A stretch of DNA of 28,043 nucleotides, from the IMG/VR virus record IMGVR_UViG_3300030102_000198, positions 1 through 28,043 of that record. One strand, written 5' to 3'. Origin of the DNA: a virus. Under the pieces are notes generated by a model. That model saw only the letters and a program-made list of their open reading frames with translations, did not search any database and had not been told where the DNA came from. This document shows positions 6,990 to 27,497 of this stretch, piece after piece; position 1 is the stretch's first letter; every line of letters starts with the position of its first letter. A program made the translations under genes and the position numbers.

Positions 6990-9766
6990 TGGCAAGGCTA
7001 AGAGTTCCTTTGTCTAGCTTTGAGTTTGGCGAAGTTAGCCCATCATTAACAAGCCGTACTGATGTATCTGTTTATAATGCATCAGCCGCACGGATTCGTA
7101 ATTTCTTTATCAAGTCAGAAGGTGGTGTCGAAAAACGTAGTGGCACACAAAACTGGTATGAGTTTTCGCAAACATATACCAAACCTACCTGCACTATCAC
7201 TGTAACTGACTATGCTAATATTGCTGTTGGCACAGTTATTTCTTTGAAGCTCAACGATGGAACAATACACACTCTAGAGTTTGAGGAACAAACATTTGAT
7301 ATAAGTATTGCTAGCGTTGTTGGAACCTATACTGTAGGTGAAACAATAACAGGTGGCACATCAAATGCGACTGCTGTTTTTGTTTCAAATACCACAACTA
7401 AAATGATTGTAAAAACAATCACAGGCACATTCCAAAGTGGTGAAACATTAACAGGCGGCACATCATCTGCAACATCAACATCATCAAGTGTTGCTTCAGT
7501 ATCAGCCGCTAGTTCATCTGTTGGAAACAAGCATTTCGTAAGGATAAATACATCTAACGATAATACCGCAGATAGTATACAAGCATCCCTCAATGCTATT
7601 ACAGGTTTTACTGTTGCAAACCCATCTGCAAATATTGTTACCGTTACACGTGATAATGCAGGTTCAATGAACCTTGAAGTTGCATCAACAGATTTAACTC
7701 GCTTAGCTGTAACAAATTTTTCTTCTAATCCTCTGCAACTTAGGATTGAACCTTTTATATTTAGCGATGATGAACGATATGTTGTTGCGTTTAGCGCAGG
7801 ACAAATTGATGTGTTCTTGCTTGACCCAACTGACAATTTTAAACCAAAAAAGGTTTCAACCATTACAGCTGATTCTGATGGAACCACTTTGCCATTTACA
7901 GAGGCAAAAGTAGCTGAGTTACAGTTTGCTCAACAAGCAGATGTTATGTTCATAACCCATCAGCTGTATCCAATAATGAAGCTTGTTCGTACAGGTCTTG
8001 AAACATTTGTTGTGAATCCATTTGAGTTTGAAACATCAACAGATAGCAATTCTATTTTACAGCCATATTTTAGCTTCCAAGGAACTGGAGTCACATTAAC
8101 AGCTGGTGCAACAAGCGGTAACGGAGTTTCATTAACAACAAGCTCTAGTTATTTTGTTTCAGATCATGTTGGCACAAGACTGCGTATGCATGGCACTGAA
8201 ATAGAAATTAAAACAGTTACCAATGGCACAACTGCAACAGGTGATATAAGTGGCACTATAAGAGAACAATTAAATATTGATGCTATTGAAACTATTTCAG
8301 GATCTAACAAGATACTAATTACTCATGCGTTGCATGGTCTTGCACCCAGTGCAACCATTACTATTGATAGAGCATCAGGTGTTGGCGGTTTAACAGCCGC
8401 TAATATAAATGGCTCACGAACAATATCTGCTGTTATAAATGAAAATGTATATGAAGTTACTGCTGGTGCTAGTGCAACCACTAGTACTGTTGGTGGAGGA
8501 TCTCCAAGAATTGCATCAGGTGCGGCTACCGTGCAATGGGAAGAACAATCATATTCATCATTACGTGGGTATCCAAGCTGTGTAACTTTTCATGAAGGTC
8601 GTTTATGGTTTGCTGGTTCATTAGCACAACCATCTAATATATGGGCATCTCATAGCAATTCATATTTTGATTTCAGCCTTGGTGATGGTGAAGATGATCA
8701 AGGAATAGATATATCTGCAAATGTTGGTTCGTTCGATCAGATTCGTCATATGGTTTCAAATCGTGATTTGCAGGTGTTTACATCTGACTCAGAGTTTTTT
8801 GTGCCATCGTTTTCTAATGCTCCAGTTACACCAACTACTGCACAGGTAAAACGACAAACACCATTCGGTTCATCATTTGTGAGGCCAGTGCCGTTTGATG
8901 GCGCGACATTGTTTGTGCAAAAAACTGAAAGTGCTGTAAGAGAGTATATTTTTTCAGATACTGAAGGTGCTTATGTTGCTACTAATATATCTACACTTTC
9001 ACCGCATCTTATTAGGAACCCTTTGCAACAAGCATTGATTAAGGGAGCGTTAAACAAACCTGAAAGCTATGCATTTTATGTGAATAAAGATGGCACTATT
9101 GCTGTTTTTTATTCACTACGTGCTGACAAAAAAGCTGGTTGGTCTTTGTGGGATACACAGGGTTTGTTTGAAAGCATTTGTTCAGTTGGCGAAAGACTGT
9201 TCACAGTTGTTATTAGAGATAATGGGGCTGGTGTCGAAAAGTTTTACTTAGAAGAATTTAATAGCAATATGCCCATGGATCATTGCAATGTTTATACTGG
9301 AACTGCTGGTATATTAACTGGTTTGAATTCTGATTTTGCAAATGGCGCTGTTGTTAAAGCTGTTAATGGTACTGATTACTTAGGGACATATACTGTTGGG
9401 TCTGGTCAATTGGATGTATCTGCGGTTGATGATACTGTTACATCTTCATTTGTAGGCTATTCATTTACTCCCACATTAAAGACAATGCCTATTGATGGCA
9501 GGTTAGCAAGCGGTCCTCTAACTGGCAAACAACGCCGCATTACATCTGTTATCTTAGATTTATTTAGCACCTTGTCCGTTTCTGTTGATGGCAGAGATAT
9601 GATAATAAGAAATGTAAATGATGACTTTGCATTAGGCAGAAATGCTTTTACAGGTAAAAAAGAATTTTTTGTAGTCGGGTATAGTAGAGATCCACAGGTT
9701 ACAATATCTCAATCTGTTCCTTTGGATCTTCAATTAAACGGCATGGTTCTGGAGGTCGCTTACTAA
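6989..9766 (+). CDS. Tail nozzle / tail tubular protein B-like (T7 gp12-like)
   Basis: This 925-residue protein should form the tail nozzle below the gatekeeper. Its N-terminus (LRVPLSSFEFGEVSPSLTSR, then a segment with GGVEKRSGTQNWYEF) is the typical opening of podoviral gp12-type proteins, and the middle contains PYFSFQGTGVTLT, SSLRGYPSCVTFHEGRLWFA and SNIWASHSNSYFDFSLGDGE, also family hallmarks. It is longer than T7 gp12 (794); part of the extra length is a Ser/Thr-rich insertion at residues about 110-178 with two copies of a 34-residue beta repeat containing GETITGGTS / GETLTGGTS. Start and stop junctions are TAATG overlaps with the neighbours, preceded by AGG (6977) and GGAGG (9751). Confidence 0.88.
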   Translation: MARLRVPLSSFEFGEVSPSLTSRTDVSVYNASAARIRNFFIKSEGGVEKRSGTQNWYEFSQTYTKPTCTITVTDYANIAVGTVISLKLNDGTIHTLEFEEQTFDISIASVVGTYTVGETITGGTSNATAVFVSNTTTKMIVKTITGTFQSGETLTGGTSSATSTSSSVASVSAASSSVGNKHFVRINTSNDNTADSIQASLNAITGFTVANPSANIVTVTRDNAGSMNLEVASTDLTRLAVTNFSSNPLQLRIEPFIFSDDERYVVAFSAGQIDVFLLDPTDNFKPKKVSTITADSDGTTLPFTEAKVAELQFAQQADVMFITHQLYPIMKLVRTGLETFVVNPFEFETSTDSNSILQPYFSFQGTGVTLTAGATSGNGVSLTTSSSYFVSDHVGTRLRMHGTEIEIKTVTNGTTATGDISGTIREQLNIDAIETISGSNKILITHALHGLAPSATITIDRASGVGGLTAANINGSRTISAVINENVYEVTAGASATTSTVGGGSPRIASGAATVQWEEQSYSSLRGYPSCVTFHEGRLWFAGSLAQPSNIWASHSNSYFDFSLGDGEDDQGIDISANVGSFDQIRHMVSNRDLQVFTSDSEFFVPSFSNAPVTPTTAQVKRQTPFGSSFVRPVPFDGATLFVQKTESAVREYIFSDTEGAYVATNISTLSPHLIRNPLQQALIKGALNKPESYAFYVNKDGTIAVFYSLRADKKAGWSLWDTQGLFESICSVGERLFTVVIRDNGAGVEKFYLEEFNSNMPMDHCNVYTGTAGILTGLNSDFANGAVVKAVNGTDYLGTYTVGSGQLDVSAVDDTVTSSFVGYSFTPTLKTMPIDGRLASGPLTGKQRRITSVILDLFSTLSVSVDGRDMIIRNVNDDFALGRNAFTGKKEFFVVGYSRDPQVTISQSVPLDLQLNGMVLEVAY
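7316..7522 (+). repeat. Two-copy 34-residue GET-repeat inside nozzle protein
   Basis: At the protein level GTYTVGETITGGTSNAT and GTFQSGETLTGGTSSAT are 34 residues (102 nt) apart, starting near residues 112 and 146. The DNA of the cores is also similar (GGTGAAACAATAACAGGTGG and GGTGAAACATTAACAGGCGG). The repeat is followed by a Ser-rich stretch. This looks like a small tandem beta-hairpin insertion in the outer part of the nozzle. Confidence 0.65.
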
Positions 9767-10182
9767 TGGCAGATCCATTTACTATTGGCCTTATGGCTTT
9801 TTCAACACTGTATTCTATGCAGGCCGCAAGCAGTCAAGCGTCTATGCAACAGCAACAATACGAGCAAGCTCGTAAAGATGCTATCTTGCAGGGCAAGGAG
9901 CGTCACAATCAAGCTATATCAAACATGTCTGCTCACCTTGCAACAAACAATGCTTTGGCTGGATTTATGCAAGGGGATAACAGGAGCCTAAAACGTGTTG
10001 CTGATAAAATAAGGAAAGATGCATCTACCGATGCTGGCAGAATAAATATGAGCATGTTGTCTGCGGCATCACAAAATAGATTAGCAGGTAGGATAGCTGT
10101 TATGCAGGGACGTAATAGAGCTACTGCTAGCCTGATAGATGGTGTGTCATCTGCATATACTCATGCGGCATTGTACAAATAG
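9766..10182 (+). CDS. Internal virion protein, T7 gp14-like
   Basis: A 138-residue protein with a hydrophobic N-terminal helix (FTIGLMAFSTLYSMQAA) followed by a Gln-rich, Ala-rich amphipathic coiled region (QASMQQQQYEQARKDAI) and a long helical tail with ASQNRLAGRIAVMQGRNRAT. This is the pattern of gp14-type ejection proteins, which are stored in the head and form the outer-membrane channel after adsorption. It lies exactly in the gp14 slot between nozzle and the large ejection proteins. Family identity rests on position and general character, since gp14-type sequences are poorly conserved. TAATG start junction with GGAGG upstream; the stop is followed after 7 nt by the next gene with AGGTGAC. 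Confidence 0.75.
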   Translation: MADPFTIGLMAFSTLYSMQAASSQASMQQQQYEQARKDAILQGKERHNQAISNMSAHLATNNALAGFMQGDNRSLKRVADKIRKDASTDAGRINMSMLSAASQNRLAGRIAVMQGRNRATASLIDGVSSAYTHAALYK

Positions 10183-10189: not shown

Positions 10190-12346
10190 ATGGTTGGTGT
10201 TATAAAATCAAAAGGCCCACAAACACAGACTAAAGCCGCAGGTGTTTTGAATATTAACACTGGTGCTGATCAGGTCGCTTCTGCTCTTGGTCGTGCGGCT
10301 GATAGAGTTGGTCAAGTTGCCTATCAAAAGTTTGAGGACGAGCAAACTGAGCTTGGTAAAAAACAAGCCAGAGGCATGAAGATGCGTGATGAAAAAGGTA
10401 ATATTATTTACCAAGACATCACATCAGACATGACGCGTGTTGCCCGTAATGCGGCTCAACCAATTATACAAGAGCGTTACGGTAGACAGCTTGGCCTTGA
10501 TATGGACAGGGCGCTTATTGACTTAAGGGCAGATGTCAATGCCCACCAAAATGATCCAGAAAAATTTAGAGAGCTAGCTGGTTTAAGGCTTGAGGGTATG
10601 ATCTCTAATGTGCCTCAAGACTTTGCTGATGTTGGGCAAATGGCATTGGATAGTGTTGGCGCTGAACGCACTATGGATCACTACAATCAGCTTACTCGTG
10701 CAAAGATAAAAGAAGAAGAAGCTGTTGCAATAAGCAACATGCTTGTTGAAGTGAGTGATGATGTTAAAACAATCCAAGCATTAATTGCTAATGGCGATGT
10801 AGACACAGCTTTAGATTTAGCTGATAGCTCTCGCAAGAAAGCTGGCTTGCTCATTGGTATGGGTGGTAATTTAAGTCAACAAAATGCGGCTATTAAAGCA
10901 ATCGATACTGTTGTTTATGGCGAGCAAGCAAACCTTATTGCAAATGAGCTGATTGCAGAGGGTTCATATGATTTGCTCGATGCTATGGCAGAGTCTTTTG
11001 AAGGTAATGCTATTGTTGATCCAGATCGTCAAGTTGTTATAGCGGAAGATAACAAACAGATTACTATGTCATTGCGAGAAGCTTTGGCGAGAAAAGGTAT
11101 TACTGATGAATACCTTAGAAACATTGATGATGTAGAAGTGCGTGGGGCTGTAGCGGCGGCAATAAGAACACGCGCTAATCAATACTCTAGTAGGCAAAGA
11201 GATCTTGTAAAACTTGCAAATATGCAACAGCTTGTTCAGGACCAGATGAATGGATCTGGGTTTGCAGAAACAGGATCAAAGGCTGAAGATGCTGTTGAAA
11301 GTGTCCTGACGCAAACAATGACTAGAGAGCAAATGGTTAGCGCTGAAGGTGCGGCAATGGCGCAAGATCCAAATTCTACGTTTGGAAAGATATTGCGTAA
11401 CGGCGCTGTATTTCCAACGTCTGTTAAAAAACAATTAATCAATGCCGCACAAGCTGGCGCTAATCCAAAGACTGCTTCTGAGTTACGTAATCTACTTACC
11501 ATATGGGCTACTGGTTCAATGGGGATTACAAAGAATGGCCCAGTTGTTCGTAGTAAACTATCAAATGAAGTCAATGCGTTTTGGAAAAACGTAAATAACT
11601 ATGCAATGTCGTTTGGTATGGAAGCGGCAACAGAATATGCAACTGCTTTGACTAGTGGTTCTACCACTAAACAAGATTTAGAAAATCAAGCACGTATTAA
11701 TTTAGGTAATACAAATAAAGATGCTTATGCTCAAATTACTCAACGATGGTCTGATGAAGGTTGGATTGAGGATAAAAATCCAAGGGCAATTTCTAGACTA
11801 AAAACTATTGCTATACGAGCATACGCTTCATTGCCTATAGAAGAGGCTGATGATTATATTGATACAGCTTATGAAACTTTGTTTGCCCCAACAGATTATA
11901 TAAGAACTCCTGCAATTATGGGTGCGGCAAAACAAGATCGTAGCGAGTTTGCTCCAGAACGATTTTATGGTGACGAGCTAATGCCATCGTTCTTAGATCA
12001 TGTAAATAAAAAGCTAAAAGGTGCATCAGGTAGTTTTGTTTTAGGGGACAATGCATTTTTGTATCCATCACCTGACAGCACAAACTCTTCAGTTACATGG
12101 CAAGTCATTGATAAACAAGGTAAGCCAATATTAAATTCTAATGGACAGATTTTAATAAGGTCTCAAGCCCTTAACAAAGACAGCACAATGGCTAACAAAT
12201 TTGCTCAAGGCGTTAATAATAAAATTGAAGAAGCTAGAGCTTTAAGAGACAAGGCAATGTCTGGACCACAAACAGGCATCGAAGCAAAAGCTGAGGGATT
12301 AAATATTGGTGCTGGGTTAATTGATTCATTGTTAGGTAGACAATAG
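10190..12346 (+). CDS. Internal virion (ejection) protein, T7 gp15-like
   Basis: This 718-residue protein is almost entirely helical, with many Ala, Gln, Lys and Asp residues and no membrane segment. The N-terminal region (VASALGRAADRVGQVAYQKF) resembles the start of gp15-type ejection proteins, and the length is close to T7 gp15 (747). Such proteins form the periplasmic tube of the ejectosome. Several GxDxAL-type helical hairpins (NGDVDTALDLADSSRKKAGL) hint at solenoid packing. It is followed after one base by the gp16-like gene; AGGTAG upstream of 12348 lies within its own last codons, suggesting coupling. Function is inferred from order and helical character, not from a catalytic motif. 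Confidence 0.82.
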   Translation: MVGVIKSKGPQTQTKAAGVLNINTGADQVASALGRAADRVGQVAYQKFEDEQTELGKKQARGMKMRDEKGNIIYQDITSDMTRVARNAAQPIIQERYGRQLGLDMDRALIDLRADVNAHQNDPEKFRELAGLRLEGMISNVPQDFADVGQMALDSVGAERTMDHYNQLTRAKIKEEEAVAISNMLVEVSDDVKTIQALIANGDVDTALDLADSSRKKAGLLIGMGGNLSQQNAAIKAIDTVVYGEQANLIANELIAEGSYDLLDAMAESFEGNAIVDPDRQVVIAEDNKQITMSLREALARKGITDEYLRNIDDVEVRGAVAAAIRTRANQYSSRQRDLVKLANMQQLVQDQMNGSGFAETGSKAEDAVESVLTQTMTREQMVSAEGAAMAQDPNSTFGKILRNGAVFPTSVKKQLINAAQAGANPKTASELRNLLTIWATGSMGITKNGPVVRSKLSNEVNAFWKNVNNYAMSFGMEAATEYATALTSGSTTKQDLENQARINLGNTNKDAYAQITQRWSDEGWIEDKNPRAISRLKTIAIRAYASLPIEEADDYIDTAYETLFAPTDYIRTPAIMGAAKQDRSEFAPERFYGDELMPSFLDHVNKKLKGASGSFVLGDNAFLYPSPDSTNSSVTWQVIDKQGKPILNSNGQILIRSQALNKDSTMANKFAQGVNNKIEEARALRDKAMSGPQTGIEAKAEGLNIGAGLIDSLLGRQ

Positions 12347-12347: not shown

Positions 12348-15300
12348 ATGCCAGTTAAATTAGAGAATAACTATACTCCACCGATAGATCGTGGCCCTCT
12401 TTCTGCTCCGCTATCAACTCCTACTTTTGGTGAAGCATTCCGTGCTACTTTTGATTATCAATACGCTCCATTGCTTGATAGGATTGAAGAGCTTGGCAGG
12501 TTTTCTACACGCGAGTTTGATCAATCACTTGATCCTTTTGCTCAATCGGCTGGCTATGAAGAGTATCTAAATGAGCTTGCTGTTGCTAGAGATCAAGAAC
12601 ATTTAGATTTTATAAAACAAAATATTGATGAACGTCTTTATGAAAAAGATGTTCTTACACGCGCTGGTATAACAAGTGGTGGTGTTCTTGTTGCTAGCTT
12701 GTTAGACCCATTAAATATTGCTTTTGCATTACCTATTTTTGGTCAACTTGGTTTGCTAGCCAAAGGTGGCATGGCCGTGCGTGAAGCTTTCAAAGCTAGT
12801 GCTAGAGGTGGTTTCGTTACTGGTGTAGCTTCGGAAGGTATCCGTGCGCCATTTGATAAAACAGTTACGGATGAAGAAGTTGCGTCAAATATATTAGCCA
12901 CAACATTATTTGGTGGTGTTATTGGATCTATTCCAGCTGTTGCACGTGCTGGATATAATTATACACGTAAAACACAAGCCGCACGTAATGCAGAGTTCCA
13001 AGGTCGTGGTTCTTTAAAGCGTGATATTGATGGGTTTAAAATAGAACGCGGAGATAACAATAGTCGTTTACCTGTTTCATCTAAAATAAAAATACAAGAA
13101 GGTAATACAGGTAAAACAGTAAATGGCAGATATGTTCCAGCGTTTTATAATTCTAAAACACAGACTGTCAAAATTGATTCTGAGTACATAAAATCAACAT
13201 TTGACAAAGCACCGTGGACTAAACCAAAGGTTAAGGGCGTTAAGCCACTTGCAAAAGATGCATTTAAAACTCCAGACGAATGGGTAAATTTTGTTCGAAA
13301 TCACGAAATTGCGCATACAATGGTTCGCCCTTCGGATCTTGGGATCGACAAAAAATCACCTACAGCTGTTGCTGATTATGAAAATGCTATCAATGAAATT
13401 GCGTTAAAAGGAAACCCCCAACAACCAATAACAATTAAAAACAAAACTATTACAATAGATGACACCCAATTATCTATTGAATTTAATCAACGACCTTGGG
13501 TTCGACCAGAAGTCAAAGGAGCAACTCCATTAAAAGAAACTGACTTTCTCACTCCTGATGAATGGGGGGAGTTTCAGGTTTTACGATCTATTGTTAGGTC
13601 ACAAAATAAACGTGCTAAAGGCGAATCAGAAGTTTCATATGTAGATCGTACTAATAAAATAGCATTAGATCGTTCTAGAAGTGGACTTGAATTAGAAGAA
13701 ACTCCACTTACTAGATCATTAGCATGGAAAATGCTTACAACTCCTAGTAAACGCATTCTTGAAAACGGCACAAATTCAATGAAAGTTTTTGTGCATCGCA
13801 TGGTTGGCGTTGAGCATATCTCAACAAAGAATGTTTCGAATGGTCAAGCAACAACACAGTCTGTTCATCAACAGGCAGAAACTCATATTGGAACATACGT
13901 TACTCATGTAAACGTAATGCGTGATTTATGGGCAAAGGATCAGCTTAATCGATCTAAAGGAGCCGCTACACGTGTGCTAGGCTATAATACAGATAATATT
14001 GTTGCTAAGTGGAGAAACGCAAAATCATTTGAAGATTGGTATGCCGCTGTCAATGAGGCTCGTTTGCTTAAACAAGCTGGTCAAGGATTTAAAAAACATG
14101 ACGGCACATTTTCAGCAGACTTCAGACAAGCAATGGTTGAAGTAGATACGTTTTTCGAAAAATTTAGAGATGAGCTAGAGGCTCTCAACCTTATAACTAG
14201 CGTCCAACCTATTAAAGATAGAAATGCTCGTATTCGATTAGACATTGAATATATGGAACGTATGCAATCAGAGCGTGGGCTTACAGCTGGTCAAGTGAAA
14301 CGCCTTGAGTCTATGAAAAAACAAGTTGAGTTTAATGAGGGCCTTATTGAGAACTCAATAACAGATAATTATACGTTGCCTATTTATTATGATAAGGCCG
14401 CAATTGCGGCTGATGATAACATGCGCAAACGTCTCGTAGATATTTTTGAAGAACATATTAAAAACAATCCTGTCGTTAGCTTTTGGGATGATAAAGCGCA
14501 AAAATTTATAGAGGTTGACCCAGCAACAAGAGCAGAGCCAAGAAAGATTGCTGAAGATGCTGTTGCATCTATAATGGAAGAAGGCGATCAAATGCTTGTC
14601 ACTGAAATGAGTGGAATCCCTAAAGGCAAACATTTGCGTCATAGGCAAATTGCTATTCCAGAATTTAAAATAAAAGATTTTATAATTAAAGATATGCGTG
14701 TTGCTAGATCTTATGCGGCTAGGGTTGGTAAACGCATTGAATTTGCAAGAAAGTATGGCAATCAAAGCATTGATGATATTCTTGATGACGCTGAATTTGA
14801 AATGCGTGAAAAGGGATTCTCTGAAAAGAAGATAGTGTCGCTCCGTGCTGATATGGCATTTGAGTATGAGCGCGTTATGGGGGAACATATAAAAGACCCT
14901 TCACGATGGGACAATCAAACTGCTAGATTATTAAAAGAAACAGCAGGAATCTCTTATCTTGATGCCGCCGCTTTAGCTTCTGTTACTGATGCTGGCATGT
15001 TAATTATGGAACGCGGCCCTATGAACATGTTTATGGGAGCGCGTACAGAGCTTGATAGAAGCTTGCTTGGTAAAAATAGGAAGCTTATACCTGCTACAGG
15101 AGAGGCAACTGAGCTTGCGTTAGGCGGTGTACAGCAACGTATAATTGCTGACAATATTGATGGCATTGAGCCTACTGCTGTAGAGCGTGTTTTAAATCCA
15201 ATAACGAGAGCTTATTATAACATACCAATTCTTGGTAATGGTCTTGGCACACTTACTTACATATTTAAGCAGGTTGATGGGTCGTTTCGTGCTAGTGATT

Positions 15301-16187
15301 TAATGGATAAGATTGTTAGGATGGCTAACAATACCATTGATGAAGCTGATGCGCGGTACTTATTGAGATATGGCATATCAGAACGTGATGCAAAAATTAT
15401 GGCGCAACTGCCTTACGAAAAAGGCGATCATATATTGCACCCTAATATTGATAAATGGCCTAACAAAACTCAGGCAGACCGTGAATTAATACGGAAATGG
15501 AACACTGCCATGAATGCTGGCATTGGCAATACTATTCTTCATGCAACAGCTTTTGATAAACCTCGCATAATGGATGGTACAATTTATGTTAGATACAGAC
15601 CGTGGATGAAAAAGATTGGTTTTGGTGAGTCTGATATTGATCAACGCGCATCATCAAAAACAATTCCATTAGTACGTCTTGAGTCTGGTTTGATGACATT
15701 TCCGTTCCAGTTTTATAATTTTATGCTTGGGGCTACAGCGCGTGTTACTGGTGGGCTGGCAGATCCAATGCGTAGACATCGCGTTACTGGTGCCATTGCA
15801 TTACTTGGTTTAGGCTATTTAGCTCTTAACTTAAAGAAAGACAAATGGTGGTTTGATGCACGTTCTGATTCAGAAGTTTTTCAACGTACAGTAGATCAGT
15901 CTGGTATTTTTGGTGTATATGGCGATATAGCTTATACCGCTACACATGTTGCTATCGGCACAGGCTTGCTTGATGAACGTGATTCAATATTAAAGCCTAA
16001 ATATAACCCTTCTTTCTTTGATGCTATTTCTGAACCAGCTGGCGCGGCCCCTGGAATGGTTGCGTCTTGGATCAAAGGCGCTACTCATTACATGAACGGT
16101 GAAGATACAGAGGCGGCAAGAGAATTTAAATACAACTCTCCAATATTACCTATTTTCGCGTTGGCTACTGATTTTTATGATGATTAA
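12348..16187 (+). CDS. Large internal virion (ejection) protein, T7 gp16-like, with zincin-like repeat domains
   Basis: This 1279-residue protein is close in length to T7 gp16 (1318) and ends the gp14-gp15-gp16 order. Its N-terminus (TFGEAFRATFDYQYAPLLDR) fits this group, followed by hydrophobic helices at residues about 108-140 and 182-198. T7 gp16 starts with a lytic transglycosylase domain; I see none here. Instead residues about 262-445 hold two related segments, period 94. Copy 1 has HEIAH (His319, Glu320, His323) and DYENAINEIAL (Glu350), a gluzincin-like arrangement; in copy 2 these positions are Arg, Ser, Arg and Lys. The remainder is helical, with a hydrophobic stretch near the end (AIALLGLGYLALNL). 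Metallopeptidase activity is inference. A possible role is local peptidoglycan or envelope-protein opening during ejection, or self-processing. Confidence 0.85.
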   Translation: MPVKLENNYTPPIDRGPLSAPLSTPTFGEAFRATFDYQYAPLLDRIEELGRFSTREFDQSLDPFAQSAGYEEYLNELAVARDQEHLDFIKQNIDERLYEKDVLTRAGITSGGVLVASLLDPLNIAFALPIFGQLGLLAKGGMAVREAFKASARGGFVTGVASEGIRAPFDKTVTDEEVASNILATTLFGGVIGSIPAVARAGYNYTRKTQAARNAEFQGRGSLKRDIDGFKIERGDNNSRLPVSSKIKIQEGNTGKTVNGRYVPAFYNSKTQTVKIDSEYIKSTFDKAPWTKPKVKGVKPLAKDAFKTPDEWVNFVRNHEIAHTMVRPSDLGIDKKSPTAVADYENAINEIALKGNPQQPITIKNKTITIDDTQLSIEFNQRPWVRPEVKGATPLKETDFLTPDEWGEFQVLRSIVRSQNKRAKGESEVSYVDRTNKIALDRSRSGLELEETPLTRSLAWKMLTTPSKRILENGTNSMKVFVHRMVGVEHISTKNVSNGQATTQSVHQQAETHIGTYVTHVNVMRDLWAKDQLNRSKGAATRVLGYNTDNIVAKWRNAKSFEDWYAAVNEARLLKQAGQGFKKHDGTFSADFRQAMVEVDTFFEKFRDELEALNLITSVQPIKDRNARIRLDIEYMERMQSERGLTAGQVKRLESMKKQVEFNEGLIENSITDNYTLPIYYDKAAIAADDNMRKRLVDIFEEHIKNNPVVSFWDDKAQKFIEVDPATRAEPRKIAEDAVASIMEEGDQMLVTEMSGIPKGKHLRHRQIAIPEFKIKDFIIKDMRVARSYAARVGKRIEFARKYGNQSIDDILDDAEFEMREKGFSEKKIVSLRADMAFEYERVMGEHIKDPSRWDNQTARLLKETAGISYLDAAALASVTDAGMLIMERGPMNMFMGARTELDRSLLGKNRKLIPATGEATELALGGVQQRIIADNIDGIEPTAVERVLNPITRAYYNIPILGNGLGTLTYIFKQVDGSFRASDLMDKIVRMANNTIDEADARYLLRYGISERDAKIMAQLPYEKGDHILHPNIDKWPNKTQADRELIRKWNTAMNAGIGNTILHATAFDKPRIMDGTIYVRYRPWMKKIGFGESDIDQRASSKTIPLVRLESGLMTFPFQFYNFMLGATARVTGGLADPMRRHRVTGAIALLGLGYLALNLKKDKWWFDARSDSEVFQRTVDQSGIFGVYGDIAYTATHVAIGTGLLDERDSILKPKYNPSFFDAISEPAGAAPGMVASWIKGATHYMNGEDTEAAREFKYNSPILPIFALATDFYDD
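13131..13682 (+). repeat. Tandem zincin-like domain duplication inside ejection protein
   Basis: Copy 1 covers residues about 262-355 and copy 2 about 356-445. Matched landmarks: PWTKPKVKGVKPL (Trp290) with PWVRPEVKGATPL (Trp384); TPDEWVNF (Glu311) with TPDEWGEF (Glu405), both 94 residues apart; and YENAINEIAL (from Tyr344) with YVDRTNKIAL (from Tyr431), 87 apart, implying about 7 residues lost in copy 2. Copy 1 keeps HExxH and the downstream Glu; copy 2 keeps the scaffold residues only. Confidence 0.75.
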
Positions 16188-17869: not shown

Positions 17870-18691
17870 ATGCCTTACATTGGTAATCAAGGATCTATAG
17901 CTGGCTTTGTAAATCAGCCAAGCAAACAGGATCTCACAGGCGCTACTGGCGGCACACTGACGCTTACACATGCTGTTAGTGGGCCAGAGGACATATCTCT
18001 GTTTATCAATAATGTTAGGCAAGAGCCTACAGAAAGCTACACAGTTACAAATACTACAGTCACTTTACAAGGCTACACTGTTGCCGCTACTGATGACATC
18101 TATGTTCTTTATAATGGGCTGACACAGCTTAGTTCTGTACCTGCCGATGGCTCTGTATCTATGGCAAAGCTTGCTTCAACAGGAACACTTCCAGCATTAG
18201 ATGGTTCTGCATTAACTAATTTAAACACATTCTCACCTTCATATGCCTTACTTGAAGATAGAAAGGCATCAAACAGTCAAGGTGGTACGACTGTAAATCC
18301 AAGCGCATTTGCTCACAGAACATTGAACACAGAGGTGTCAGACCCTGATAATATCGTTTCTTTGTCTGGCAATGCTTTTACACTTGGTTCTGGCACATAC
18401 AGAATTGATTGGGGGTGTCCTGCATATAACTGCGGCGCTAACAAATCTCGTTTGTATGATACAACCAACACAACTTATTACGATGGCGAAAGTACATTCG
18501 CAAATAACTCTGGAAATGGTGGGTCAAGCTGGTCAAGGGGTTCTGCAATTATAGTTCTTACAGCCAATGCAACATTTAGAATTGAACATAGATGCAACGA
18601 TGCAGGTATTGGAAGTGGTTATGGCAGAGCAACAAACTTTGGTCAGCATGAAATTTATACCAGAGTTCAAATTGTAAAGATTGCTGATTAG
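17870..18691 (+). CDS. Fibre protein A1 with MPYIG N-terminus and C1q-like head
   Basis: This 273-residue protein begins MPYIGNQGSIAGF and has an N-terminal beta domain of about 90 residues (SLFINNVRQEPTESYTVTN, then DDIYVLYNG), a linker of the type used in fibre joints (GTLPALDGSALTNLN), and a C-terminal domain of about 150 residues with YALLEDRKAS, RTLNTEVSDPDNIVSLSGN and RIDWGCPAY. That C-terminal pattern resembles compact C1q/TNF-like beta heads found on phage receptor-binding fibres. It is paralogous to the protein at 19589-20515 in the N-terminal half but has an unrelated head. AGGTGAC lies immediately before the ATG. Likely a short fibre contacting the host surface; receptor unknown. 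Confidence 0.75.
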   Translation: MPYIGNQGSIAGFVNQPSKQDLTGATGGTLTLTHAVSGPEDISLFINNVRQEPTESYTVTNTTVTLQGYTVAATDDIYVLYNGLTQLSSVPADGSVSMAKLASTGTLPALDGSALTNLNTFSPSYALLEDRKASNSQGGTTVNPSAFAHRTLNTEVSDPDNIVSLSGNAFTLGSGTYRIDWGCPAYNCGANKSRLYDTTNTTYYDGESTFANNSGNGGSSWSRGSAIIVLTANATFRIEHRCNDAGIGSGYGRATNFGQHEIYTRVQIVKIAD

Positions 18692-18700: not shown

Positions 18701-19258
18701 ATGGCACTTTCTAAAATACAATCCGAAAGCATAAACCTTTCTGATACCTTTGCGTTTACTGGTACGGTAAGTGGTGCTGGCGGTGGTAAAGTTTTACAGT
18801 TTAGGCAGTATGAATCTAATACGGCACTGAGAACAACCAATACTATTCCTCTTGATAATACAGTGCCAACAGCCACTGAGGGCGGTCAGGTAATGACTGC
18901 CGCTTTTACGCCGACTAGCGCAACTAGCGATGTGTTTATTTTAGTTCATGTCTTTGGCAATGAGCATACAAATATTGCAAGTACAATTTGTGTGCCTTTA
19001 TTTGCTGGAACTACACATTTGCAAACAGGTTATATGTCAATTAGATCAAGCGGTGGATCAGATGGTCACAGTTGGAACCAATGCTCATTCATGACTAAGC
19101 ATACGCCTGCAAGCACAAATGCAATTACATATCAAGTCAGAATGGGGTGTGAACAAAGTGGTAGTCCTATTGAAAGCCTAGATGTCGCAACAAGCATACA
19201 AGGCTCAAGATATGGTCAAACAATCAAGAACACTATGACAATATGGGAGGTTGAGTAA
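18701..19258 (+). CDS. Fibre-tip type protein B1
   Basis: This 185-residue protein begins MALSKIQSESINLSDTFAFT, continues with GGGKVLQFRQYESNTALRTT, and has a beta-rich body with SDVFILVHVFGNEHT and a closing NTMTIWEVE strand. The N-terminus and the GGGKVLQ block are shared with B2 at 20525-21022, so the two are paralogs. The general form (short N-terminal coil, KVLQ strand, jelly-roll-like body, acidic last strand) is common in small distal fibre proteins of marine phages. It starts behind AGGAG and its stop overlaps the next gene as TAATG. Receptor binding is inferred from position and paralogy. Confidence 0.7.
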   Translation: MALSKIQSESINLSDTFAFTGTVSGAGGGKVLQFRQYESNTALRTTNTIPLDNTVPTATEGGQVMTAAFTPTSATSDVFILVHVFGNEHTNIASTICVPLFAGTTHLQTGYMSIRSSGGSDGHSWNQCSFMTKHTPASTNAITYQVRMGCEQSGSPIESLDVATSIQGSRYGQTIKNTMTIWEVE

Positions 19259-19588: not shown

Positions 19589-20515
19589 ATGCCCTATATT
19601 GGCAAAGCCCCAGTCAGCGGCGGTTTTCACAAGCTGGACAACTTGACAGCATCAGCTACAGCCACCTACGCATTGACGCTAGGTGGCGCGTCATACTTTC
19701 CAGAGACAGCTAATCAGTTGTTAGTATCTCTTAATGGCGTTATTCAAGCACCGCAAGACAGCTTCACAGTCAGCGGCAGTAACCTAATATTTGACAGCGC
19801 ACTGTTAGCTTCAGATAGCATCGACTTTGTTGTTGCTTTGGGTGATGTGTTGGGTGTTGGTACGCCAACTGATGGTACGATTACCACGGCTAAGATTGGT
19901 AACGGTGCTGTCACAGACGCTAAGATCGATACAATGGCGGCATCCAAATTAACAGGCGCATTGCCAGCTATTGATGGGTCTAATCTTACTGGACTTAGTG
20001 GGAGCAACATTAAAGAAAAGCTAGTGATGCTCTGTGATGGTAATAACTACACCGTTGGAAGCGGAACATACACATCAACAAATGTGACTGCCGCAATGGT
20101 TTTGACCACTACAAGCACAGATATAACAGGGTCATCTATATCTTACACGCCGCCAACAGGCACAACTATGGTTATATACGAGTTTGTATACTCTCACAAT
20201 TTTCAAGATACAGATACCATAACTCATATTAGATCATTCATAGATAGCAATGAGGTGACAAGCCAACGGCAATCTATCCAGACTTATGGTGCTTTGAATA
20301 CAGAATATCATCATACTTTTTTAATACCAATCGGTGGTAGCGCAAATACAGCCACTGGCAGACAAGCAAGTTGGACAAGTGCTAAGACACTTAAAATACA
20401 AGGCAGGTGCTACAACAACAATTACCAAGCTCGTATTCACGATTTAAGAAATTGGGATGGTTCACCTTCAACTTTAATTAGAAAACCTCAATTGATAATT
20501 ACGGCGTTGGGATAG
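19589..20515 (+). CDS. Fibre protein A2, paralog of A1 with a different head
   Basis: This 308-residue protein begins MPYIGKAPVSGGFHKLDNL and has the same N-terminal fibre-joint architecture as A1: a beta domain (LLVSLNGVIQAPQDSFTVSG, then DSIDFVVALG), then GTITTAKIGNGAVTDAKI and GALPAIDGSNLTGLSG. The C-terminal domain is unrelated to A1: KLVMLCDGNNYTVGSGTYT, SISYTPPTGTTMVIYEFVYS, LIPIGGSANTATGRQASWT and a final LIITALG, a beta-rich head widely found in marine phage fibres. AAGGAG lies 6 nt before the ATG. Likely a receptor-binding fibre with a specificity distinct from A1. Confidence 0.78.
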   Translation: MPYIGKAPVSGGFHKLDNLTASATATYALTLGGASYFPETANQLLVSLNGVIQAPQDSFTVSGSNLIFDSALLASDSIDFVVALGDVLGVGTPTDGTITTAKIGNGAVTDAKIDTMAASKLTGALPAIDGSNLTGLSGSNIKEKLVMLCDGNNYTVGSGTYTSTNVTAAMVLTTTSTDITGSSISYTPPTGTTMVIYEFVYSHNFQDTDTITHIRSFIDSNEVTSQRQSIQTYGALNTEYHHTFLIPIGGSANTATGRQASWTSAKTLKIQGRCYNNNYQARIHDLRNWDGSPSTLIRKPQLIITALG

Positions 20516-20524: not shown

Positions 20525-21022
20525 ATGGCACTAATACGATTAAATTCCAGATCAGCCCCAGCCGATACTTTTGGTGGTGGCAAGGTTTTGCAAGTTATTA
20601 ATCAAAAAATAGATACGAGCGCATCATTCAGTATATCTGCTAATGTTTATCAAGACACAGCACTTACTTTGAACATTACCCCATCAGCATCAGACAGTAA
20701 AATATTAGTCATGGGCAACTTTTTAGGTTCAAATAGTGGTGGCAACTATCCTATGTATTTTAGGATTGTGAGGGTATTAGGTGGCACAACTACTGCTATT
20801 ACTCAAAGATTAGGTCATCTTGGTTATGTTGCTAACTTAGAAAACTTTATCCCATCATCTAATGCTACAGTTTTAGATGATCCTCAGACAACCTCACAAC
20901 TTACATATAAATGTCAGATTAGTTGTGTCTTTAATCGCACTGTCTATTTTAATACTAACTACCAGTCTGGCAATAATAACACGCAAAGCAGTTTTTTAAC
21001 TGCAATAGAGATTGCTGGCTAA
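20525..21022 (+). CDS. Fibre-tip type protein B2, paralog of B1
   Basis: This 165-residue protein begins MALIRLNSRSAPADTFGGGK, followed by a VLQVINQ strand, NITPSASDSKILVMGNFLGS, and a final strand FLTAIEIAG. The ALxxLxS start and GGGKVLQ block align with B1, and both follow an MPYIG protein, so A-B has been duplicated as a unit or acquired twice. The body differs from B1. AGGAGAC precedes the ATG by a few bases. The following gene starts 4 nt after its stop. A distal fibre or receptor-binding role is inferred. Confidence 0.7.
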   Translation: MALIRLNSRSAPADTFGGGKVLQVINQKIDTSASFSISANVYQDTALTLNITPSASDSKILVMGNFLGSNSGGNYPMYFRIVRVLGGTTTAITQRLGHLGYVANLENFIPSSNATVLDDPQTTSQLTYKCQISCVFNRTVYFNTNYQSGNNNTQSSFLTAIEIAG

Positions 21023-23739: not shown

Positions 23740-24001
23740 TAGTACGCTTCTCCTTGTTTCTGTGGCATACCCATAGCCCAAACTTGCCATCGTCTAGTTG
23801 TCTACGCGCAAACACAAAGTCTGTGTGTTTGCGTATAGCATTGGTAAGGCAATCAACCGTTTGCTTATCTTCGACAACAATAGAGTCTCCAAGCTCAAGG
23901 TCTTTCATCCAGCTATATTTAGTTTGTCCTTTTGTGCTACCTACATGAGATAGGTCAGGCATTGGGACATCTTTACGAATTACAAAAGGTTTGCTCGACA
24001 T
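23732..24001 (-). CDS. Small early-region protein between ERF and SSB-like genes
   Basis: This 89-residue soluble protein has segments DVPMPDLSHVG, KYSWMKDLELGDSIVVED, TNAIRKHTDFVFARRQLDDG and KFGLWVCHRN. The middle block, a short Trp segment followed by LELGDS and later a basic helix and an FxxRR strand, resembles small phage and plasmid proteins of unknown function that often accompany recombination genes. Start ATG 24001 lies in a TGATG overlap with the ERF stop and follows AGGAG by 7 nt. Its end overlaps the SSB-like start by 8 nt. The tight coupling on both sides suggests a role with ERF and SSB, but the mechanism is unknown. Confidence 0.68.
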   Translation of the reverse strand: MSSKPFVIRKDVPMPDLSHVGSTKGQTKYSWMKDLELGDSIVVEDKQTVDCLTNAIRKHTDFVFARRQLDDGKFGLWVCHRNKEKRTNG

Positions 24002-24465
24002 CAAAAATCTCCTGTGTCGTTAGTGCGAGTGAGTCTCTTTTTTGCAGTATTGTTTGCAGACGCAGACCCAGTAGCGTCATTACCATCATCATCAGAGGCT
24101 AGGCCAAACATAGCTTGCAAACCGTAACGCTTTGCATATGTGATGCCACTGCCCATGGCTTGTGGATTGGTAATGTCTTTCACCTTGACGAGGGTGCGGC
24201 TGGTGCGCTCCTTGCCTGATGGCTCGTGAATCATGTGAGTGACGATGAACTCAACAATGAGTCCATCGTGAACCTCAAAATTATTTTCTTGGTAGTAGAC
24301 GATTCCGAACTTTTCTGCGGTGTCGCAGACCAGCATGACATCTTCTAGCTTTGAGTACTTGCCGTACTGCGCTTTGCCTTTCTTTGGCACGGTTGGCTTG
24401 GTGCGTTGCCATGCCAGCAAAGCGGCTTCCATTGTTTGTGGGATTGTGTTAGATTTCGTTGTCAT
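24001..24465 (-). CDS. erf: ERF-family single-strand annealing recombinase (short form)
   Basis: This 154-residue protein has the ERF signature: AQYGKYSKLEDVM near residue 32, IVEFIVTHMIHEPSGKERTS, then PQAMGSGITYAKRYGLQAMF at about 101-120, followed by GLASDDDGNDA. ERF proteins anneal complementary strands during phage recombination and genome circularisation. The usual length is near 200 residues; here the C-terminal part after the Asp cluster is short (Ala/Thr-rich, ending RTNDTGDF). Start ATG 24465 follows AGAAGGAG by 7 nt; a TTG one codon earlier is less likely. The hairpin at 24499-24532 separates it from the 87-aa gene upstream. With YqaJ and the SSB-like protein it forms a complete Red-like system. 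Confidence 0.92.
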   Translation of the reverse strand: MTTKSNTIPQTMEAALLAWQRTKPTVPKKGKAQYGKYSKLEDVMLVCDTAEKFGIVYYQENNFEVHDGLIVEFIVTHMIHEPSGKERTSRTLVKVKDITNPQAMGSGITYAKRYGLQAMFGLASDDDGNDATGSASANNTAKKRLTRTNDTGDF

Positions 24466-24498
24466 CAACTGACTCCTTCTTTGATGATAGTGCGATAT

Positions 24499-24532
24499 AA
24501 CAGGACGGCTTATGGGGACAGGCCGTCCTGTT
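24499..24532 (-). terminator. Hairpin upstream of ERF gene
   Basis: AACAGGACGGC (24499-24509) pairs over 11 bp with GCCGTCCTGTT (24522-24532). It starts at the stop codon of the 87-aa gene and lies about 34 nt upstream of the ERF start on the minus strand. The stem is followed on that strand by ATATCGC rather than a long U-run, so termination would be partial. It may set the ratio of exonuclease to annealase mRNA. Confidence 0.6.
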
Positions 24533-24795
24533 TATAATTGTAAAGAACCTTGGCGTGGATCTGTAGTAGCTGGCTCCCAAGGTATATCGACAAGCTGGTA
24601 GCTACCTTTAAACTTAGATTGAAACACTTTACTGTTTGGCTTCAGCTGTGACAGCTGATCAACAGACAGTGACATAAACTTGCCATCATGTGATATATGC
24701 ATACCACCTTTTGATATGGCTTCTTTGATTTCATAATCTTTGACAGATACATATCTGCCCTGCCAAAGCTTTTTTACTTTTACTTTCTTAGCCAT
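24532..24795 (-). CDS. Small basic early protein downstream of exonuclease
   Basis: This 87-residue protein has a basic start (MAKKVKVKKLWQGRYVSVKD) and a beta-rich middle (GGMHISHDGKFMSLSVDQLS, FKGSYQLVDIPWEP). It overlaps the exonuclease by 8 nt and has AGGAGG about 6 nt before the ATG. The stop sits at the base of a strong hairpin. I do not recognise the family. Its place directly after a YqaJ exonuclease and before ERF suggests an accessory to recombination or an inhibitor of host nucleases, but this is speculation. Confidence 0.65.
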   Translation of the reverse strand: MAKKVKVKKLWQGRYVSVKDYEIKEAISKGGMHISHDGKFMSLSVDQLSQLKPNSKVFQSKFKGSYQLVDIPWEPATTDPRQGSLQL

Positions 24796-25582
24796 TGCTT
24801 GCCTCCTTTGTGGTCATGCGAATAGACCCATTGGACGCACGGCGCATTGTAAAGTCATCGCAATACATCTCACGACAGTTGGCTGGCATGATTTCTTTAA
24901 GGCGCTTCTTGGCATTTTCATGTGCTGTGTGTTTTTCTTTGGTCACAGCAAAGATCTCAGCATCAGCCATAAACTGATTGTTCTGAGATCCATCAATAGC
25001 AATCATGCTGTTGATAGGGACTGCATCAATCTTTGGCAAGATTGGATTTAGCTCACCTCTGTCAGGCTCAAGGTCATCTTTGACATATGACCAGAAGTCG
25101 ATGATCTGCATGAGCATCTCATGCTGATACATCTTGTCAGCTTGTACTGTCACATGCTCTCGGCGAGAGTTTCCAAATATGCAAGAAAATACAAGGCGTT
25201 TAAACTCAGAAACCATTAGATAAAATTGTATCTGTGGCATGTAACGCTGTAATTGTTTATCCATTGTTGTGCGTTCATTGGTATGCTTGCACTCGTAACC
25301 AATACCGCCATTAGCGCCATCAAGTGTGGCACGACATGGAACATACTCTATATCACGCTTGCGCTTGACTTGGCGTTCAATAGATACACCAAGCTCACGC
25401 TCAAGCTCTTGGATATGGAACTCTTCTGTGTACGTACCAAGCCGCACAGCAAAGATGTCTGATAGATCATCGGGATCTTGGCGCCCAGTTTTGACAAGCC
25501 ACAAGTCATGCCAGTTACCTGCCATGATATCGTAGCAGTCACTGCCACCAATAAATCCCATACGGTGATTTGTAGATTTCAT
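24788..25582 (-). CDS. YqaJ-type (lambda Exo-like) recombination exonuclease
   Basis: This 264-residue alkaline exonuclease has the conserved blocks in order: GFIGGSDCYDIMAGNW (residues 9-24), LWLVKTGRQDPDD, VRLGTYTEEF (Glu53 area), RATLDGA (Asp88), and GYECKHTN with the catalytic ExK as Glu97 and Lys99. It would resect double-stranded ends to give the single strands used by ERF. The C-terminal half is helical with KMYQHEMLMQIIDFW, matching the family. Length is normal. Start ATG 25582 has AAGGAG 6 nt upstream. It is followed by the 87-aa gene and then ERF, the usual early-phage arrangement. Confidence 0.92.
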   Translation of the reverse strand: MKSTNHRMGFIGGSDCYDIMAGNWHDLWLVKTGRQDPDDLSDIFAVRLGTYTEEFHIQELERELGVSIERQVKRKRDIEYVPCRATLDGANGGIGYECKHTNERTTMDKQLQRYMPQIQFYLMVSEFKRLVFSCIFGNSRREHVTVQADKMYQHEMLMQIIDFWSYVKDDLEPDRGELNPILPKIDAVPINSMIAIDGSQNNQFMADAEIFAVTKEKHTAHENAKKRLKEIMPANCREMYCDDFTMRRASNGSIRMTTKEASNG

Positions 25583-25623
25583 GATGTACTCCTTCTCTCA
25601 AGTTTGTTGTAGACTATTTCGTC

Positions 25624-26238
25624 TCAAGAATCAACCTGTTTTATGCGGTTGAATATTGTTTTTACCATTTCATTTCGCTTTTTTGCGCGTTGCTCGTAGT
25701 GTTTATTAAACTCAGAAAACGCGGGCCAGAATGTACAAGACACTTTGATAGTGTTTAGTACACTGCAAAATATATCAGCGGGCCAGTCACGCATCTCATT
25801 TGCATAGAGCTTGCATCGCATACCTGCATCTTTGGGTGACTCATTAGATGGCTTGACCATTAGCATCATTGTCGTGAGCAAAGACTTTTCCATAGCTTCA
25901 ACGGGCATCGGCTGAATAGCCATGATCAATGCACGGACAGCTTCATCAATGTTGTGATCATCAGCTAGTGCAATGCTATAACCACGGAACACTTCATAGC
26001 TGTCACCATCTGTAGGGAATCGTGACTCACTACGTTCAGTCAAGAATACTCCGTGCCGCATCATCGAAGAAAGAATTGACCTGTCTATTTCTGCTGGTCT
26101 TGACAGACGCAGACGATCTACTGCTTTGTTTTGCTCCAAAACTGTTAGAACACCAGACGGTATACTTGGCATCCCAGTTTGCTTGTGGTCTGCCATCGGC
26201 TTGGTAGTAATTTCTAAATTTAGTTTGCTCAACGTCAT
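25624..26238 (-). CDS. Replication-module protein, possible helicase loader
   Basis: This 204-residue protein sits in the position of a lambda P-like gene, directly after the O-like gene. The N-terminal 60 residues are polar; the middle has RALIMAIQPMPVEAMEKSLL and a C-terminal helical block with RCKLYANEMRDWPADIFCSV and FWPAFSEFNKHYEQRAKKR. The Y-x6-WPAD block followed by a WPAFSEF-type segment recurs in alphaproteobacterial prophage replication regions, as far as I recall. There is no Walker motif, so it is not a DnaC-type ATPase. Start ATG 26238 has an excellent AGGAGG 6 nt upstream, but this makes the first 68 codons overlap the O-like gene by 203 nt in another frame. A later start (26064) would shorten the overlap but has no better site. 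Confidence 0.68.
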   Translation of the reverse strand: MTLSKLNLEITTKPMADHKQTGMPSIPSGVLTVLEQNKAVDRLRLSRPAEIDRSILSSMMRHGVFLTERSESRFPTDGDSYEVFRGYSIALADDHNIDEAVRALIMAIQPMPVEAMEKSLLTTMMLMVKPSNESPKDAGMRCKLYANEMRDWPADIFCSVLNTIKVSCTFWPAFSEFNKHYEQRAKKRNEMVKTIFNRIKQVDS

Positions 26239-26623
26239 GGTCTACCTCCTGTTTGATTGACGCACGTAACTCTTCACTAGCTACCCAGTCAGGAGGTATT
26301 GGATATCTTTTTGTTCTAGTGTTAGTTACAGGTTCGTGTCTACCTGATAGACTAGATTGGTCTAGCTCGTTGACTAGTATGGTATACGTAGTAGACCGCC
26401 GCTTAGTTCTATCTCTATGGATAAAACCATTGCGTTCTAGATAGTCTAGCTTGTTGACTACTGTTTGTCGTGATAGATGCGTAACCTTTTGTATTCTAGT
26501 TATTGAAGGCCAACATTCTCCTGACTCCGTGTTTGCATGCTCAGCGATAACAAGCAATACAAACTTGGCTAGCGCATCACCGATGTCGGTTTGATACACA
26601 CAGCCCATTAGTGCGAATGACAT
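26036..26623 (-). CDS. Winged-helix replication initiator (lambda O-like)
   Basis: This 195-residue protein has an N-terminal winged helix-turn-helix at residues about 15-80 (FVLLVIAEHANTESGECWPS, ITRIQKVTHLSRQTVVNKLD, YLERNGFIHRDRTKRRSTTY), as in O-like phage replication proteins and HTH_36-type domains, and a C-terminal block FRNYYQADGRPQANWDAKYT then VWCSNS (residues 136-160), typical of initiators that bind a helicase loader. The start ATG overlaps the resolvase stop as TAATG, with GGAG 7 nt upstream. The gene body carries repeated TAGTCAAC-AGCTAGAC sequence, a possible origin. Its last 203 nt overlap the next gene in another frame; the conserved C-terminal block falls partly inside that overlap, so both frames look real. 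Confidence 0.78.
   Translation of the reverse strand: MSFALMGCVYQTDIGDALAKFVLLVIAEHANTESGECWPSITRIQKVTHLSRQTVVNKLDYLERNGFIHRDRTKRRSTTYTILVNELDQSSLSGRHEPVTNTRTKRYPIPPDWVASEELRASIKQEVDHDVEQTKFRNYYQADGRPQANWDAKYTVWCSNSFGAKQSSRSSASVKTSRNRQVNSFFDDAARSILD
26337..26460 (-). repeat. Repeats within O-like gene, candidate replication origin iterons
   Basis: On the minus strand TAGTCAACRAGCTAGAC occurs twice, at 26444-26460 and 26360-26376, exactly 84 bp apart, each followed within a few bases by TCTAG. Around them are inverted pairs GTCTA-TAGAC (26338-26350 region) and CTAGA-TTGG-TCTAG (26352-26365), and unusually many CTAG tetramers. In lambda the origin iterons lie inside gene O, so this cluster is a candidate origin; both copies also encode similar residues (VVNKLD and LVNELD). 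Confidence 0.45.
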
Positions 26624-26940
26624 TACTTACTCCATATTTGCTCCACAATATGATCGGGTATGATCATCACCCATTTGGGGTTGCTTCCTGTGCCACGCTT
26701 GTACAACGCAACATCACGATTTTCTAAAACAGTAAATGGTGATGGGAAGCTGGATGACTTTCTGTATTTTACTTCTGCCACCAAGCGGTGTCCATTGATT
26801 TCGATGATGATGTCTCCAGAATACTCTCCTCCCAGTGATCCACTAAGCGGTTGCTTCTTGACACTCCATCCCCACTCTTTGAAGAGCTTGACGAAATAGT
26901 TTTCGTGGTAGTTTCCTTTTGAGCGAGCTTTGCTTGCCAT
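26623..26940 (-). CDS. Hjc-like PD-(D/E)xK Holliday junction resolvase
   Basis: This 105-residue nuclease has the catalytic layout of small resolvases: Glu13 in GNYHENYF, a Gly/Ser loop, Asp43 in EYSGDIIIEING, and Glu56-Val-Lys58 in HRLVAEVKYRKS. Archaeal Hjc is 120-140 residues with the same spacing, and many marine phages carry such a resolvase with their replication genes. It would resolve branched DNA during replication or before packaging. A VRR-Nuc-type or other PD-(D/E)xK nuclease is an alternative. The ATG at 26940 has only a weak GAGAAAGA upstream and may depend on translation of the overlapping upstream frame. Its stop overlaps the O-like start by one nucleotide. Confidence 0.8.
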   Translation of the reverse strand: MASKARSKGNYHENYFVKLFKEWGWSVKKQPLSGSLGGEYSGDIIIEINGHRLVAEVKYRKSSSFPSPFTVLENRDVALYKRGTGSNPKWVMIIPDHIVEQIWSK

Positions 26941-27083
26941 GATTCTTTCTCGTAACAGTTAAGACACACAACATAATGGTCTGGTGGATCACAAGATTTC
27001 ACAGGGCATACGAAATATTGTGAACGTACTTCACAAATATCACACTTTGCAGAGTGACCACGGTTAATCTTTTTTGATTTCAA
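26769..27083 (-). CDS. Cys-rich zinc-finger-like small protein overlapping resolvase
   Basis: A 104-residue frame whose first 50 residues hold six cysteines and a histidine in zinc-finger spacing: AKCDICEVRSQYFVCPVKSC then DHYVVCLNCYEKESW, with CxxC, Cx4C and CxxC pairs. This density is very unlikely by chance, and bases 26941-27063 have no other gene. The start is uncertain: only a TTG at 27083, within the end of the regulator gene, gives the whole frame; there is no ATG before the cysteines. The C-terminal 57 residues are Ser/Lys-rich and overlap the resolvase in another frame for 172 nt, so they may be non-functional. Alternatively the zinc finger is made as part of the resolvase by frameshifting, or the true product ends early by sequence error. 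Confidence 0.5.
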   Translation of the reverse strand: MKSKKINRGHSAKCDICEVRSQYFVCPVKSCDPPDHYVVCLNCYEKESWQAKLAQKETTTKTISSSSSKSGDGVSRSNRLVDHWEESILETSSSKSMDTAWWQK

Positions 27084-27339
27084 CTTTACAATCCAATGCT
27101 TGCAACCAGCATAGGAATAGGAACCCAGATGGCAACCGTTTATATTGTTCCCATTTGTGTATTAGACTTGAAGCGCAACCAATCTTATGGGCTAAGGCTT
27201 CTTGGGACAGTTCACATTTGTGTCGTTCTTCGACCAAACGATCTACAATTACAATCCAGTTTTTATCGACAGTTACTGGTGCTTTCAAATGAGTAAATGT
27301 TTTCAATAGTTTATCCACATACTGAAAATAGTTACTCAT
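27064..27339 (-). CDS. XRE/Cro-like helix-turn-helix regulator
   Basis: This 91-residue protein begins MSNYFQYVDKLLKTFTHLKA and carries a Cro/CI-type helix-turn-helix at about residues 33-75: RLVEERHKCELSQEALAHKI then GCASSLIHKWEQYKRLPSGF. The C-terminus (ALDCKVEIKKD) is short, so it has no oligomerisation or cleavage domain and is more like Cro than CI. I choose ATG 27339; the 35 extra residues of a longer frame include a hydrophobic run encoded by the leader hairpin and are unlikely. No strong ribosome site is visible. It lies about 150 nt downstream of a predicted extended -10 promoter covered by a repeat array, its likely operator. It is probably the early-gene switch. Confidence 0.75.
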   Translation of the reverse strand: MSNYFQYVDKLLKTFTHLKAPVTVDKNWIVIVDRLVEERHKCELSQEALAHKIGCASSLIHKWEQYKRLPSGFLFLCWLQALDCKVEIKKD

Positions 27340-27373
27340 AATTACTACATAAAACATATACATAAAGCAAGAT

Positions 27374-27415: not shown

Positions 27416-27497
27416 GTACTCCAAATCTTACACAAGAAAGCCACCTAATATGGGGCTGTCTGAAATGTCCTTTCTTTGCTAGTTGAACTTACGGTTT

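Follow-up and report, generated by a model that had tools for sequence, protein, structure and literature searches.

What does a zincin-like HExxH segment do inside a large protein of a phage ejection apparatus, and why is it followed by a homologous segment that lacks the motif? The question is posed by the IMG/VR virus record IMGVR_UViG_3300030102_000198. The window referred to below is the whole analysed stretch of 28,043 bases. It has a podovirus gene order of the T7 type, running from terminase through portal, capsid, tail tubular, gp14-like, gp15-position and gp16-like genes to the tail fibres. Its source is a marine short-tailed phage. The capsid protein shares 53% identity with its counterpart in Pelagibacter phage Hodr; the capsid proteins of HTVC034P and of Vibrio podophages are more distant relatives. 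Two tail-fibre ORFs (17870-18691 and 19589-20515) match PHROG 18673, and the ORFs after them (18701-19258 and 20525-21022) match PHROG 29834. Because this ORF pair occurs twice, the region suggests a two-gene unit in duplicate. A recombination and replication block occupies 24001-27444 on the minus strand and encodes an Erf-like annealing protein, a RecE-like exonuclease, an O-like replication initiator, a RusA-like resolvase and a regulator.

The gp14-like ejection protein (9766..10182, plus strand) is a weak assignment from position and a match to phrog_418, internal virion protein (E 0.006). The next ejection protein (10190..12346, plus strand) is placed by position alone, between the gp14-like and gp16-like genes, and showed no convincing family match. 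The gp16-like ejection (internal virion) protein has 1279 amino acids (12348..16187, plus strand). It contains the PHROG 342 core and lies in the ejection operon before the tail fibres. The profile phrog_342, 'internal virion protein with endolysin domain', matches it with E 2.4e-34, residues 56-1075 corresponding to profile positions 261-1050. This core is homologous to that of T7 gp16, and the gene order is the expected one. Unlike T7 gp16, the window protein begins only at position 261 of the profile, and no N-terminal transglycosylase is detectable in the encoded part of what is a contig fragment; instead, it carries a zincin cassette and a pseudo-zincin. SLT, phage-lysozyme and M15_4 domains were likewise not found in the window record, again a fragment. 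Two hydrophobic segments lie upstream of the cassette, at residues 108-132 (12669..12743, plus strand; Kyte-Doolittle maximum 1.9) and 178-200 (12879..12947, plus strand; maximum 1.5).

An earlier note on this DNA had read two segments of this ORF as in-frame homologues with a period of 94 residues, and their homology is now firmly established. Copy 1, the active-type cassette, spans residues 257-354 (13116..13409, plus strand; cassette HMM E 9.3e-34). Copy 2 spans residues 364-442 (13437..13673, plus strand), with a shorter N side, and is detected at E 5.8e-18 by an HMM built exclusively from copy-1-type domains. The local alignment of the two scores 122, compared with at most 48 in 1000 shuffles. 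The spacing of 94 residues, from P289-W290 to P383-W384, is kept as far as the active-site helix and no further. Beyond it, Y344 and Y431 are 87 residues apart, because copy 2 is 7 residues shorter past the motif. The family signature precedes the active-site helix and reads W290-T-K-P-K-V-K-G-V-K-P-L in copy 1 (13215..13250, plus strand) and W-V-R-P-E-V-K-G-A-T-P-L in copy 2. As the note had it, copy 1 carries H319, E320 and H323, within H319-E320-I-A-H323 (13302..13316, plus strand), and copy 2 aligns R413, S414 and R417 with them, within R413-S414-I-V-R417 (13584..13598, plus strand). Val432 aligns with Glu345 of copy 1.

Predicted metal site and fold of copy 1

The DNA pattern first searched for, W-T-x-P-x-V-x-G and then HExxH, matched 107 viral stretches, with a spacing of 102 bases in nearly all of them. 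Since this pattern itself demands HExxH, a second scan was run without that requirement, using W-T-x-P-x-V-x-G-V-x-P and a Phe. It gave 82 matches, many of them mutually related. Two were cut by contig ends, and 79 of the 80 informative members have HExxH; the remaining one has HEAEN. The two middle residues of the motif vary freely. The conservation of WTxPxVxG in both scans is by construction, because the signature served as the search pattern. At 60% identity, the domains with HExxH group into 46 clusters.

The two His residues are the predicted zinc ligands and E320 the predicted general base. The earlier note placed the third ligand at Glu350. This assignment is most likely wrong, as its column is variable, with Q, E, K, D and other residues, and Glu is found there in 12 of 62 aligned diverse members. 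Glu345 of the YENxxN motif and Asn349 are each present in all 62. Given this invariance, Glu345 is most likely the third ligand. It lies in the segment E345-N-A-I-N349 (13380..13394, plus strand). The ExxxN pair formed by E345 and N349 resembles the ExxxD of thermolysin. The five positions H319, E320, H323, E345 and N349 are thus near-invariant. Between the window and L001, copy 1 differs by 35 synonymous and 3 nonsynonymous codon changes, and the changes in codons 319 and 320 are synonymous. Copy 1 is under purifying selection.

Neither of the two profile libraries searched recognises this family. In Pfam and PHROGs, no peptidase profile matches copy 1, and the cassette is modelled in neither. 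The sole Pfam match up to E 10 is Jak1_Phl, and phmmer against the PDB gave no relevant match. AlphaFold2 with 62 sequences predicts a zincin core for copy 1 at a pLDDT of about 87-98. In model numbering, strands occupy 21-24, 38-41 and 46-49; the helix bearing HExxH spans 82-98 and the one bearing Glu345 spans 113-127. VIA-align against the PDB ranked zincins first, with middling Z values of up to 6.8, and nearly all rows on the copy 1 range were HExxH metalloproteins. PprI (Z 6.8, rmsd 2.8, 85 aligned), IrrE (Z 6.7, rmsd 2.7, 88 aligned), a mycobacterial regulator (Z 6.2) and abylysin (Z 5.0, rmsd 2.9, 73 aligned) were among them, together with YbeY, anthrax lethal factor, selecase, ArdC and BepA. 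The solved folds closest to copy 1 are therefore IrrE/PprI, ImmA-type peptidases and the minigluzincins abylysin and selecase (Z 6.8 to 4.6). The likeness is by fold only, as none of the IrrE/ImmA and minigluzincin Pfam profiles matches copy 1. Foldseek alone returned no PDB match with E < 1 for copy 1. In BFVD, four long phage proteins match the model with E < 0.001. The model thus combines a helical HExxH, Glu345 on a second helix and a predicted zincin fold. Independent conservation and the predicted fold together argue for the note's reading of copy 1 as a zincin-type metal site of the HExxH plus Glu kind.

Carriers and relatives of the cassette

The cassette recurs in dozens of uncultured aquatic phages and in almost no isolated ones. 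A tblastn search of 50,697 phage records with the window copy and four representatives as queries yielded one confident relative, a decayed one in Pelagibacter phage EXVC031P Hodr (OQ414635). JNU_P2 and KPP21 matched weakly (E 0.1 to 0.6) and were set aside. No cassette was found in plasmids by sequence search. A collection of 84,980 species genomes contained one real member (L153); the other three of the four pattern matches are attributed to chance, with family HMM scores below 7 bits. Sequence searches have a limited reach, and divergent members could escape these counts.

Carriers were surveyed in 46 cluster representatives. Both the N and C cores of a gp16-like protein are present in 13 of them. 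The cassette lies between the two cores, as in the window, in nine of the 13 and inside the C core in the other four. In three carriers only the C core was detected, with the cassette likewise inside it, and one has the N core alone. The same test found no gp16 core in 29 of the 46. In the alignment of L055 and the window protein there is a break at residue 1040/1042, the place of the cassette. In L026 (687) and L033 (339), too, it is the gp16 C core that contains the cassette. Among the other carriers are proteins with matches to tape-measure-like, DprA-like or endolysin families. The cassette therefore occupies two different slots of gp16-like proteins as well as unrelated large phage proteins. 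A 3334-aa phage protein (L104, 3357-13358) combines the cassette with a DprA-like domain (PHROG 768, E 7.3e-14). An ejection protein (L113, 8225-12487) has a lysozyme-like N-terminus (E 1.4e-4) and a zincin cassette.

Relatives found through the gp16 core show presence/absence turnover. L123-L127, L129 and L135 have a copy-2-type segment only. L003/L127 is 84% identical to the window protein in the best segment and has no copy 1; at the place of the window's copy 1, L003 (5001-7715) has about 150 K/A-rich residues, probably a coiled coil. The Hodr group has a single copy at the same position of its gp16-like protein, with K-E-x-x-R where the window's copy 1 has HExxH. L145 has only an active copy in its sequenced part, and L128 and L130-L134 have no cassette. 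L031 and L071 have an inactive copy downstream of an active one, and the L069 group has an active and a partial copy.

Zincin-like peptidases in delivered phage proteins are already known as a kind. They were predicted in 2017, and the literature searched, with the available text of that paper, names no substrate (PMC5512222). Iyer et al. described zincin-like metallopeptidases, in 12 clades, in the polyvalent proteins of phages and plasmids (PMC5512222), and Pfam holds them as PF18818 (MPTase-PolyVal). According to the available text (PMC5512222), they resemble the cassette in the HExxH helix, the Glu on a second, C-terminal helix and the three-strand sheet. They too reside inside large delivered proteins, some of which contain several copies. 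The available text makes no mention of the WTxPxVxGV signature or of YENxxN. PF18818 does not match the window record. It gives no match to the cassette in 12 records, in two of which it matches separate ORFs. These are proteins of 291-294 aa in Hodr (L148, 1075-1959) and in the L092 phage (L149, 1075-1950). When the cassette was compared with these two ORFs by hhalign, the HE..H motifs aligned, at a probability of 0.8% and E 0.069. The C1 domain of the coliphage N4 virion RNA polymerase is also HExxH zincin-like and is located in a podophage's largest ejection protein (PMC12633501). Its carrier, unlike that of the cassette, is an RNA polymerase of Schitoviridae; the comparison is by description (PMC12633501). 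The openly licensed literature that was searched yielded no cassette family that has its own signature, resides in T7-type ejection proteins and is recurrently partnered by a pseudo-zincin.

Function of the cassette

The reading that we favour, with a probability of about 0.6, is that copy 1 is a working accessory zincin-type metallopeptidase that is ejected and cuts an envelope or host protein, and that copy 2 is an old structural or binding pseudo-zincin. A cassette with HExxH and Glu345, inserted just after the N-terminal core of the gp16-like protein, would be packed in the virion and would exit with the ejectosome. Copy 1 would then act on a protein, located at the envelope or inside the host, and cut it as infection starts. 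The activity would be accessory, being added, moved, lost or inactivated in related phages. Copy 2 would have kept its helical core, lost its metal site and come to play a structural or binding role in the ejection protein. Zinc binding and proteolysis by copy 1 are predicted from the site and the fold. Delivery into the host envelope or cytoplasm is probable, because the carrier is homologous to the ejected gp16 (PMC8954989, PMC12633501). An accessory activity fits best because the catalytic site, including the general base, is invariant, and the domain, which can be lost, shifts from slot to slot and from carrier to carrier.

Another possible reading, and a less probable one, is that the cassette cuts its own or neighbouring ejection proteins at packaging or after ejection, releasing or disassembling parts of the ejectosome. 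The cassette is embedded in long multidomain proteins, and the available text of Iyer et al. proposes self-processing for the zincin-like peptidases of polyvalent proteins, with the processing of P1 DdrB as a precedent (PMC5512222). According to the same text, however, the N4 virion RNA polymerase contains a domain of this kind and yet is packaged without processing (PMC5512222). Moreover, two gp16-like slots and carriers of unrelated kinds harbour the cassette, and the gp16 core persists in relatives that lack it. There is therefore no general need of processing. No common cleavage-site motif was noticed, in an inspection short of a systematic search. Action in trans on a host protein is weakly favoured over self-processing, and processing in cis is nearly as plausible as cleavage of a host protein.

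It is improbable that the cassette breaches the cell wall as a peptidoglycan endopeptidase, substituting for the transglycosylase of T7 gp16. Ejectosomes do require a wall hydrolase under some conditions (PMC8954989). The match of the window protein to the gp16-like profile begins only at position 261, so that the N-terminal part is missing, and no SLT, phage-lysozyme or M15_4 domain accompanies it in the record; the window being a fragment, a missing glycan-cutting domain carries limited weight. However, a single protein of L113 has both a lysozyme-like N-terminus and the cassette, so the two enzymes are not alternatives in general. The earlier note had allowed for both arrangements, a peptidase instead of a glycan-cutting enzyme or besides one. 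Some relatives have no active cassette, and the folds that come closest belong to proteases and to DNA-damage or repressor peptidases, not to wall hydrolases. We give as little credence to a metal-binding, non-catalytic module in which zinc would stabilise a protein-protein contact of the ejectosome. The pseudo-zincin copies do indicate that a metal site is not required for the fold to be useful, but E320, the general base, is as invariant as the His residues, and a structural site needs no base.

The second copy and the history of the pair

AlphaFold2 predicts a hairpin and helices for copy 2, with a pLDDT of 73-92 across model residues 1-80, and zincins are absent among the PDB matches listed for this model. 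Where copy 2 has R413-S414-I-V-R417, relatives have K-E-x-x-K, R-E-x-x-R, K-E-x-x-R or Q-A-x-x-R. Both His positions of inactive copies are usually Lys or Arg, and the first is Gln in L031 and L071. These Lys and Arg residues might replace the charge of the metal. Several relatives keep the copy-2 type alone. This supports the earlier proposal that copy 2 is a non-catalytic relative, retained for another role.

A single clade (UFBoot 98; 96 when the ligand columns are omitted) unites the copy-2 segments of seven ORFs, L031 and L071 among them, and stands apart from the copy 1s of the same ORFs. A wider group of all decayed copies, seen in an earlier tree, fell to a UFBoot support of 46/40 once the copy 2 segments of L031 and L071 were added. 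The claim is therefore restricted to the copy-2 clade. Because this clade spans phages and the tandem recurs elsewhere, the pair of active and inactive copies probably predates the window lineage. Relative to copy 2, the active copy is probably the one that was gained and lost. The history suggested in the earlier note, a recent local duplication followed by the decay of one copy, accords with the tandem arrangement and clear homology of the copies and is nevertheless very unlikely, given a copy-2 clade (98/96) away from the copy 1s of its own ORFs and the persistence of copy 2 in relatives without copy 1.

A broader picture, which we offer tentatively and hold at somewhat less than even odds, is that of a zinc-peptidase cassette that is mobile and nearly restricted to uncultured aquatic phages, and that would be swapped at defined slots of ejection proteins as an injected early effector. 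It would have been retired repeatedly into an Arg/Lys-substituted pseudo-zincin kept as a part of the ejectosome.

With the likely third ligand corrected to Glu345, the cassette forms an HMM-ready family that is missing from Pfam and PHROGs. Homologous ejection proteins supply natural pairs with and without it, as well as natural inactive versions. The family links a zincin-like domain to the T7-type ejectosomes of aquatic phages.
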